Shown here piece by piece: positions 25,630 through 31,914 of a stretch of DNA of 64,000 nt. How positions within the stretch are numbered: position 1 is the first letter of the stretch; each line of letters starts with the position of its first letter. The position numbers were made by a program, and so were the translations under genes. The notes below the pieces were generated by a model. That model was given only the letters and a program-made list of their open reading frames with translations, had not been told where the DNA came from and did no database searches. The stretch comes from Hydrocarboniphaga sp. (GTDB taxonomy: Bacteria; Pseudomonadota; Gammaproteobacteria; Nevskiales; Nevskiaceae), in NCBI RefSeq assembly GCF_028291725.1, contig NZ_JAQGNT010000029.1, forward strand, positions 1 to 64,000, given 5' to 3'.

Positions 25630-25683
25630 TCTGTCACCTCCAAGGCCGGCCCGGTCCGGCCTCATCAGCACTTGGAGAGCAGA

Positions 25684-26994
25684 ATGAACATGCACGTGCA
25701 GATTCGAAAAGCGGGTATCGACGTTCCGCTGGATTTGGCGCCCGGACGTGACCTGGGCCGTACCGTCAACTACGAGCAGGCGGTAGCCCTCTATGGCAAG
25801 GATCTGGTCAACTTCATCACGGACCACCACAAGATCGGCGATGAGATCGGCTACGCCGCCTACAACGCAATGTTGGCTCGCGATGGCAACGTGGCTGCCA
25901 AACAGATGTTCGACCAGGCCCTGGCGAAGGGCATCGGCTCGGTGGAAAACCCACCGCCGGAGATGGTCGACCTGTTCTCCTCGCTGGACAATGTGCCTGA
26001 CTGGGTGGATTGGGACGAGCTGCATCGCGGTAGCGTCGCCTACTGGCGCGCTGGCAACATCGTGGTGATGGCCTTGGCTTACGCGGCCATCGGTGCCGGC
26101 TTCCGGACCTATGGCGGATCCCGGCCCTTGGTGTTGAGCCGACGCCTGATCGAGCGTGACCAGGTTGGGCGCCGACTGATCGAGACCCTGCGTTGGGCAG
26201 CGAACGCATCCAAACCCGGCGGGATGCGCCGCAACGGCGACGGTTTTCGCATGACGATGAACGTGCGGTGGATCCATGGCGCCGTTCGTCATCACCTTTC
26301 CCGCAGCGACAAGTGGGACTGGCAGGATTGGGGCATGGTCGTCGCCAACAGCGACTCGGTTTACACAATGGGTTGCCTGTTCTGCGAAGCGGTAGTAGAT
26401 GCGCTGGCCAAGGCGGGCATCAAGCTCAGCACGCGCGAGATCGATGATGTGACGGCGCTCTGGCGTTACATCGGCCATGTGATGGGCATTCCCGAGGACA
26501 TCAATTTCCATGACTGGCAAGATCTGCGTCGCAAGTCCGAAGTGATCCGCCTCATCGAACACCCAGCCGACGATGGCTGCCGGATGCTGATGGCCTCGCT
26601 CAAGGACTACATGTGCGAAGAGGAGATCGAGGGCTACGACGTGCTGCCGCGATTCATCGCCAAGCGTCTCTCGGTCGAGCAAAAGAAGACCCTGACCTAC
26701 GGCCTCATGCGCTCCTGGGCCGGCGATGAAATTTGCGAGCAGCTCGCCATTCCCGACAACAAGCTGCGCTACCTGTTGCCGACCCTGCGTCCGTTCATCA
26801 TGGCGCACGACAAGATCAGCCGCTTGCTGCCTCACGACGATGAGGCCAAGGCAATCCGGTCGATCGAAGCCTTTGGAGTCGCGACCAAACTGAACGACGG
26901 TGAAACCGAGGTCGCGGATGCGGACGATGTCGTGCGCGGCATGAAGAAATTCAGCGGAAGAGCACACGAAATTTTGGGAAGCAAGCCGCACTGA
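25684..26994 (+). CDS. DUF2236 (MpaB/Lcp-type) putative heme oxygenase
   Basis: 436 residues, no signal peptide or transmembrane segment. The segment from Arg163-Arg164 through Thr168 (RRLIET) to NVRWIHGAVRHHL with His198 matches the DUF2236 core, in which an Arg, a Thr and an axial heme His are conserved in the rubber oxygenase Lcp. Relatives cleave isoprenoid C=C bonds (Lcp on polyisoprene, fungal MpaB on a farnesyl side chain). Lcp is exported; this protein seems cytoplasmic, so a small imported substrate is more likely than rubber. ATG 25684 has TTGGAGA upstream. Function and heme content are inferred from the family. Confidence 0.82.
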   Translation: MNMHVQIRKAGIDVPLDLAPGRDLGRTVNYEQAVALYGKDLVNFITDHHKIGDEIGYAAYNAMLARDGNVAAKQMFDQALAKGIGSVENPPPEMVDLFSSLDNVPDWVDWDELHRGSVAYWRAGNIVVMALAYAAIGAGFRTYGGSRPLVLSRRLIERDQVGRRLIETLRWAANASKPGGMRRNGDGFRMTMNVRWIHGAVRHHLSRSDKWDWQDWGMVVANSDSVYTMGCLFCEAVVDALAKAGIKLSTREIDDVTALWRYIGHVMGIPEDINFHDWQDLRRKSEVIRLIEHPADDGCRMLMASLKDYMCEEEIEGYDVLPRFIAKRLSVEQKKTLTYGLMRSWAGDEICEQLAIPDNKLRYLLPTLRPFIMAHDKISRLLPHDDEAKAIRSIEAFGVATKLNDGETEVADADDVVRGMKKFSGRAHEILGSKPH

Positions 26995-27024
26995 AAGCCG
27001 GGACGCGCACCGGGCAGGCCCTTA

Positions 27025-27183
27025 GTGCCTCGGTTCCCAAGTACGATCACGAATCCGCGACGGATTTTCGCGCCTGGCGGCGTTGCGACTCCTCGCCATA
27101 GCGGGGCTATGCCTCGTCGTCGCGCCTTGCCAGTCGCAAAACTCCGCGTGCGCCTTCGTGATCGTACTTGGGAACCGAGGCAC
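27025..27183. repeat. 159-base palindromic element with 28-29-base terminal inverted repeats (MITE-like)
   Basis: GTGCCTCGGTTCCCAAGTAC and the following GATCACGA at the left are repeated exactly, inverted, at the right end (27156-27183). TTA flanks both sides (27022-27024 and 27184-27186), as a target duplication could, and a 10-base outer inverted pair CGGGCAGGCC/GGCCTGCCCG lies beyond. The interior has no reading frame of its own but contains further complementary stretches. It sits between the DUF2236 and TetR genes. Confidence 0.85.
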
Positions 27184-27227
27184 TTAGAATAGAGGCCTGC
27201 CCGAAGCCTTCAGCACGAGAGAATCTG

Positions 27228-27818
27228 GTGAGCCTGCCGGAAGTCGAAACCTTACCCATGCGGGAAAGAATCCTGCAAGCGGCGCCCGCCGTGATCCACC
27301 GCTTCACCCTGGCGCGGTTTGGCATGGAAGACGTCGCCAAGGCCGTCGGGATCGCTCGACAGACGATCTACAAGCACTTCCCGAACAAGGACGCGCTGTT
27401 GATCGCGATCTATGTTCGGCAAATGCGGGAGCGCCAGGTGCCGGCGATGGCTGAAGCGATCGCGAAGCCGCCTTCAGCGAAAAATCTGCTTGGCCTTTTC
27501 ATGGTGGAGCTGGGGCAGGCCATGCTGTTTCCGCTGTTCGAGGAAACGCTAGACCCCAAGACAGCGCCACTCATGGCTGAACTTTGTCTCAACTCGCCCG
27601 AGCTGATGTCGGTGCGGGAGGAGATCTGGCTGCCGATTCTCGATCGATATGTTCAGCGCGGGATCGTCCGTCCGGATTTAAACCGCCGCGCTGCCATTCG
27701 CTGGATCACGTACCAACAGTTCTGGTTTCTGACCCATCCGACGGTTCTAAGCGACTCAATCTCCGAGATAGAAATATACGTGCGTGACTTCGTGATCCGC
27801 TCGCTTTTGAAGGCCTGA
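27228..27818 (+). CDS. TetR-family transcriptional regulator
   Basis: About 196 residues from GTG 27228 (GAGAGAA upstream); ATG 27258 is an alternative. An earlier open start at 27168 lies inside the palindromic element and is unlikely. The N-terminal helix-turn-helix is clear: ERILQAAPAVIHRF, then GMEDVAKAVGIARQTIYKHFPNKDALL. The C-terminal ligand domain is not specific. It follows the DUF2236 oxygenase and ends the catabolic island, so it may be a repressor sensing an intermediate of that pathway; no operator is proven. Confidence 0.88.
   Translation: MSLPEVETLPMRERILQAAPAVIHRFTLARFGMEDVAKAVGIARQTIYKHFPNKDALLIAIYVRQMRERQVPAMAEAIAKPPSAKNLLGLFMVELGQAMLFPLFEETLDPKTAPLMAELCLNSPELMSVREEIWLPILDRYVQRGIVRPDLNRRAAIRWITYQQFWFLTHPTVLSDSISEIEIYVRDFVIRSLLKA

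Positions 27819-30332: not shown

Positions 30333-31914
<1,582 letters not shown>

Follow-up and report, generated by a model that had tools for sequence, protein, structure and literature searches.

A 159-bp palindromic MITE of Hydrocarboniphaga and a clan of elements that share its hairpin core and differ in their ends

MITEs are usually viewed as internally deleted insertion sequences in which selection acts on the ends only. REP sequences and REPINs are recognized by a GTAG-type foot and a RAYT transposase. Among the described systems, IS630-derived MITEs (IS630/Tc1-mariner family) are non-coding and, like the sister types of the element reported here, have TA inside CTAG as their target; one sister type, type A, also shares IS630 ends. 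Our element differs from them in that it duplicates TWA, not TA, and in that the interior of its clan is conserved across terminal types. The enterobacterial repeats RU-1 and RU-2, of 127 bp and 168 bp (PMC2759123), are by their description alone also short, intergenic, MITE-like and of similar length. The QMITEs of Coxiella are gammaproteobacterial MITEs, as is ours (PMC5896051). One of them, QMITE2, is drawn as a strongly folding transcript and has direct repeats of 7-9 bp, a description that sets it apart from the 3 bp or CTAG found here (PMC10969869). In Pseudomonas fluorescens, R0, R2 and R6 (89, 110 and 177 bp) consist of inverted repeats around a core, and R0 and R2 have been suggested to be moved in trans; unlike for the present clan, the description of these families mentions no core common to them (PMC2718517). 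REP sequences and REPINs with their RAYT transposases are dispersed extragenic palindromes too (PMC2817692), whereas the unit described here is defined by terminal repeats and a target duplication. ISY100 is treated in PMC2170065.

The window, a stretch of 64,000 nucleotides of Hydrocarboniphaga sp., carries the palindrome between two genes. Its terminal type has the ends GTGCCTCGGTTCCCAAGTAC, and its features are as follows.

25672..26994, plus strand: upstream gene for an MPAB/Lcp oxygenase-domain protein (PF09995; the DUF2236 of the earlier note), ending 30 bases 5' of the MITE body
27011..27020, plus strand: left arm of an older, outer 10-bp inverted repeat, CGGGCAGGCC
27022..27024, plus strand: left copy of the target duplication, TTA, within CTTAG at 27021-27025
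27024..27053, plus strand: left terminal inverted repeat, 30 nt perfect (38 nt at 92% over 27021-27058)
27025..27183, no strand: MITE body, a non-coding palindrome of 159 bp that starts with GTGCC and ends with GGCAC
27071..27135, minus strand: conserved hairpin core, 87 bits with covariance model R1, which has the window copy among its 23 training sequences
27080..27086, minus strand: right half of the conserved internal-loop motif, GCAACGC
27122..27129, minus strand: left half of the conserved internal-loop motif, CAAGGCGC
27155..27184, minus strand: right terminal inverted repeat, 30 nt perfect (38 nt at 92% over 27150-27187)
27184..27186, plus strand: right copy of the target duplication, TTA, within CTTAG at 27183-27187
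27194..27203, plus strand: right arm of the older, outer 10-bp inverted repeat, GGCCTGCCCG
27258..27818, plus strand: downstream gene for a TetR-family regulator (PF00440), start codon uncertain

An earlier note on this DNA had described a 159-base palindrome between a DUF2236 gene and a TetR gene, and the sequence and the domain assignments bear this out; both genes read in the same direction. The terminal inverted repeats, which the note had put at 28 or more perfect bases, are perfect over 30 nt by inspection, and the flanking TTA is present on both sides. The interior is non-coding, as had been stated: among the listed frames only one, a TTG extension of the TetR frame, reaches into it, and with 159 bp, or at most 53 codons, the element is too short for a transposase. 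As a single strand, positions 27011-27203 fold into one hairpin of -131.6 kcal/mol, compared with -71.85 (sd 4.14) for shuffled sequences (z -14.4; none of 200 shuffles was equally good). A gene for the RuBisCO large subunit lies nearby, at 30364-31914.

The host genome, a draft assembly of 6,465,639 bases in 120 contigs, holds eight full copies of the element, the other seven being 93-97% identical to the window copy, and two shortened copies that are internal deletions of the hairpin. A 28-base end pattern (at most 3 mismatches) matched 18 ends, nine per strand, which are both ends of the eight full copies and one end of each shortened copy; the reversed control matched none. Single changes, scattered over ends and core alike, distinguish the copies of the window type. 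The two target copies agree in seven of the eight full copies, as CTTAG/CTTAG or CTAAG/CTAAG, and the eighth (L003) reads CTTAG/CTTGG, with one substitution between them. Since both ends share one letter, and this letter varies between copies, the duplication comprises three bases, TWA, and not two. The element thus combines the traits by which MITEs are known: terminal inverted repeats, a short and non-coding body, and several copies flanked by target duplications. A single insertion sequence in decay, or a palindrome arisen by chance, with no mobile family behind it, would suit the lack of an adjoining transposase gene, the neighbours being the oxygenase-domain and TetR genes, but this explanation is already refuted and has practically no probability left: eight full copies stand at different sites with target duplications, and their number excludes a chance palindrome. 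The earlier note had suggested a non-autonomous, MITE-like transposable element and proposed looking for further copies. Seven more full ones and the two internally deleted ones now support that suggestion, and the palindrome is neither a single copy nor without related sequences.

The window palindrome is a MITE, a narrowly distributed member of a broad palindromic MITE clan. Our main reading, to which we give a probability of about 0.8, is that it was mobilized in trans and belongs to a clan with a shared and retained hairpin core. A DDE-type transposase acting in trans on the terminal repeats would have inserted it, duplicating TTA in CTTAG. The element is one of a large clan of palindromes of ~165 bp, in the host and in other Gammaproteobacteria, that keep their core and near-constant length and vary in their ends. 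This description of the clan, with constant core and length and differing ends, covers the elements read here.

The core consists of 65 nt, typically CAAGGCGC-(stem)-GCAACGC, and occurs within palindromes with differing ends. Beyond the eight copies, and leaving the two deletion derivatives aside, blastn matches cover the interior and never both ends; by blastn the core is common to other terminal types in the host and in 11 of 61 genomes, host included. A covariance model of 65 positions was built from 23 sequences and applied with a match threshold of E <= 1e-4. Within the order it finds the core in 65 of 85 genomes and 18 of 21 genera, in the class sample in 53 of 229 genomes and 46 of 196 genera, and in the phylum sample in 53 of 299 genomes, the host being counted in every sample. 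Outside the class, 38 genomes of the phylum sample match, 32 of them in one family (f193), and among the matches listed most of these are weaker, at 50 bits or less. Because scoring was confined to the 61, 22 or 17 best candidates of each genome, copy numbers are lower bounds. A strict core pattern was found in two genome_contigs records, one a Gammaproteobacteria MAG and the other a Woeseiaceae MAG, and in none of the viral contigs. The Gammaproteobacteria MAG record (L098) has an element that reads the same as that of G023, a genome of the same family, and it is through this record that the class is identified as Gammaproteobacteria.

The core alignment scores 0.319 for covariation, compared with 0.112 for its shuffles (none of 500 as high), and sliding the partners drops the paired cells from 88.5% to 18-45%. 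The 23 rows of this alignment were drawn from matches selected by a regular expression for the motif, so that its invariant columns are partly there by construction and the conservation of the motif is inflated. Among loci picked by the covariance model and not by the motif, both exact motif halves occur in 44 of 67, and among the distinct matches of one search in 23 of 35. Exact motif halves are common, not universal. In the apical and outer stems the letters vary between families and the pairing is retained; tandem G.A mismatches stand between the motif and the apical stem in several families. No Rfam family scored above its curated cut-off in the window or in 20 chosen loci. A microRNA family in the window (36 bits, cut-off 79) and five further matches in the 20 loci, all below cut-off, were rejected as generic hairpin matches.

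Constancy of length accompanies constancy of the core. Among 125 distinct cores with an outer stem, 50 have CTAG or CTWAG target copies and terminal repeats, 18 are too near the end of a stretch to judge, and 57 lack them by the criteria used, many of the last visibly having a mutation in one target copy or ends of another kind. Sorted by eye, the 30 different 12-base starts make up about 16 terminal types, with GT as the opening letters in all except two. When the core pattern was relaxed slightly, 53 elements had CTAG or CTWAG targets, and all 53 measured 163-170 bp including both target copies, in a count that allowed about 95-305. Outside this count stands a type-A element of G039 (L217:688-857), whose ends are 269 bp apart and enclose two cores, one per strand. 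Another element type, starting with (CTA)GGGCCTGTT, carries the same core in several genomes (L092, L143, L170, L172, L220 and L225).

The association of core and ends was also seen without use of the motif. A search by type-A ends alone found 30 loci. Once two full insertion sequences, and one case in which ends of different elements had been paired, were left out, these loci gave 12 distinct short elements in which both ends are present. Nine of the 12 contain the core, eight by regular expression and one, with an altered letter, by eye. The other three (L179, L191 and L202) contain other palindromes, so the core is frequent but dispensable for movement. In place of the core these three hold a TCGACAGGCTCAG hairpin, a CCCTCTCCCGC hairpin and a GGCGGGAATCCAG hairpin, respectively, which we take to be common dispersed proteobacterial repeats.

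The clan thus reverses the usual picture of MITEs: the ends change and the middle stays. No earlier description of such a clan, of the core or of its sharing between terminal types was found in the open-access literature as represented by titles and the beginnings of abstracts. Searches with the motif strings, which are short and a poor probe, returned only papers that by title concern unrelated subjects.

For terminal type A a candidate source of movement can be named. G017, a genome of the same family assembled as a single contig, has two near-identical copies of a 1168-bp element at CTAG, bounded by type-A ends that differ from a degenerate 21-base pattern by at most 2 mismatches. The transposase, read from one copy, has 362 amino acids and a DDE_3 domain, and scores 277.9 bits with an NCBIfam IS630 equivalog model (cut-off 100). 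G044, of the same order, has a 1147-bp IS630 element with an open frame and type-A ends, and relatives on Janthinobacterium and Acidovorax plasmids encode transposases 73% and 71% identical, with the same kind of ends. Since IS630 elements of two relatives carry near-identical ends and the CTAG target, type-A MITEs are probably moved in trans by an IS630-family transposase. IS630 is said, with reference to Tenzen and Ohtsubo in 1991, to prefer TA in CTAG, and the CTAG target of the sister types fits this. Two of the IS630 transposase frames (L214:835-1923 and L195:57-1154) terminate on the TAG of the CTAG target, which thus supplies their stop codon. The same is true of IS870, whose CTAG target likewise supplies the stop codon of its transposase.

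Ends shared with an autonomous element were found for type A and not for the window type. A transposase bounded by the same termini, which the earlier note had proposed to look for, did not turn up for the window type in the host genome or in 84 other genomes of the order. The host has one DDE_3 place (two adjacent pieces) and three DDE_Tnp_1 places, and window-type ends are absent around all four. Of ten terminal-repeat strings, taken from the window type and its sisters and aligned to the surroundings of these DDE places, the best had 26% mismatches. The 84 other genomes gave five unpaired matches to the window ends, each with 3 mismatches, compared with seven for the reversed control pattern. 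An exact 20-mer of the window ends had no match in genome_contigs, a search that possibly excludes the host and near records, and blastn found no match for the window element in plasmids and phages or for two sister elements in plasmids. Absence of an insertion sequence from the host assembly proves little, because draft contigs end inside a high-copy MITE type. Eight contig ends (C62, C84, C104, C109, C111, C112, C116 and C120; L077-L084) lie inside one near-identical MITE type with the terminal ends CTAGTGGTCCGTTGCA, a sign that this type was recently active.

IS630-type movement of the window type can be suggested by analogy. Its ends resemble IS630 ends weakly (shuffle fractions of 0.06-0.35 for the ends of insertion sequences, and of 0.015 and 0.03 for two type-A MITE ends, in 11 uncorrected comparisons), and it duplicates TWA in CTWAG where an IS630-derived MITE would have a 2-bp TA duplication. 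The IS1031 group of IS5 makes a TNA duplication, to which TWA conforms. It is accordingly possible, at somewhat less than even odds, that another TNA-duplicating DDE family such as this group moved the window type and that capture or retention of the core did not depend on the enzyme. The contrast between TWA here and CTAG in the other types, the weak similarity to IS630 ends and the presence of the core in elements with the quite different ends starting with GGGCCTGTT all agree with this. The length and the interior of the window element are nevertheless nearly those of type-A MITEs, and the three DDE_Tnp_1 places of the host, the ones compared for ends shared with an IS5-type element, lack window ends.

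The second, 10-base inverted pair that the earlier note had seen outside the palindrome is present, and the note had proposed that the insertion split an earlier palindrome, perhaps the operator of the TetR gene. When the site is rejoined, a perfect 10-bp stem with an 11-nt loop results, 16 bases past the stop codon of the oxygenase-domain gene and with no T-run following. The split itself is thus upheld at this site; the operator was rejected, with nothing in support of that identity. Such a split is a one-off and not a rule, since outer arms of at least 10 occur in 1 of 53 elements and at 1 of 318 background sites, and a general preference for insertion into palindromes was rejected as well. 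The upstream gene has only distant homologues in 40 relatives (best 32% identity), which left no locus for comparison with an empty site.

Mismatches between the arms bear on which strand is conserved. Were double-stranded DNA all that counts, the core strand should show G.T as often as A.C where the arms fail to match. Mismatches were counted with a symmetric pairing filter on representatives clustered by identity; the families are related and the counts therefore not independent. In the 12 nt adjoining the core, 25 representatives of less than 70% identity show 23 G.T against 6 A.C (p 0.002; 10 of the 23 G.T cells are at one position) and 19 G.A against 6 C.T, and with 85% clustering 53 representatives show 66 G.T against 10 A.C. 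The covariance model itself favours G.T, and loci found without it were counted separately: they give 24 against 3 at 85% and 8 against 2 at 70% (p 0.11). With 60% clustering the bias loses significance (9 against 5, p 0.42). Over the whole arm of 50 measured bodies, in sums over distance bins that include the terminal repeats, the counts are 85 G.T against 17 A.C and 77 G.A against 5 C.T at 85% (20 representatives), and 37 against 7 and 35 against 0 at 70% (9 representatives). That the terminal repeats (37-48 nt from the core) might lack the bias was considered and rejected, the bias being visible in the 49-60 nt bin and in the whole-arm counts. These sequence comparisons hint that the fold of one strand, as RNA or single-stranded DNA, is what is kept.

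Under our main reading the core would most likely be retained because one strand, folded as RNA or as single-stranded DNA, either serves in the spread of the element or shields it, probably by way of a host protein that these bacteria have in common. A bolder version, which we put forward tentatively and regard as rather doubtful, is that MITEs served by different transposase systems share a module folding from one strand, throughout Gammaproteobacteria and in certain other families of the phylum. This module, a hairpin of RNA or single-stranded DNA with tandem G.A pairs and conserved, asymmetric internal loops, would be recognized by a conserved host factor, aid spread or survival and be passed on while the ends are replaced. 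If selection keeps the core, a shared host process acts on the interiors of mini-transposons in many bacteria. It is also conceivable, though quite improbable in our judgement, that the core is itself the mobile unit, a REP-like hairpin moved by an HUH or RAYT-like enzyme, with the terminal repeats secondary. Its occurrence under many different ends, once twice in one element (L217), and its conservation as the fold of one strand would accord with such a unit, but boundaries with target duplications are those of DDE transposition.

Distances from the core to the end of the neighbouring gene pile up at the element boundary. By simple coding criteria, a gene's stop codon falls inside a target copy in 31 of 51 elements; for other CTAG sites in the same stretches the figure is 54 of 174 (odds ratio 3.4, p 2.5e-4), and for other CTWAG sites 7 of 51; two of the 53 elements, one an orthologous duplicate and one near an end, were excluded. 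A stricter gene call gives 29 of 53 elements against 42 of 259 sites, or 42 of 158 when sites within genes are left out. The window copy lies away from any stop codon. Because insertions within genes are selected against, the excess may reflect survival and not choice. Statistically, persisting elements are found mainly in intergenic positions or directly on stop codons, where duplication of the target preserves the stop. Such an association would explain how CTAG-targeting elements spread with little damage, and it would equip many genes with long hairpins just past the stop.

Hairpins in such positions could instead be cis-acting RNA elements in the untranslated regions of neighbouring mRNAs, serving the host as terminators, insulators or stability elements. 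The very stable fold and the mismatch bias toward one strand would suit this, as would the many elements that begin right at a stop codon, and convergent settings are somewhat commoner among the elements (24 of 76 classified) than among background gaps (52 of 229, raw counts). We nevertheless consider a cis-acting role unlikely. The core shows no preferred orientation to the neighbouring genes (tandem settings: 17 same and 19 opposite; convergent settings: 12 of each; 25 elements were set aside, 7 inside a frame, 13 far from genes and 5 at an edge), a consensus scan shows no intrinsic terminator at the window element, and, as noted above, no Rfam family attains its cut-off. Two elements of the clan, in species of one genus (L153 and L154, in G105 and G252), have very similar flanks, and the two species therefore seem to share one old insertion.
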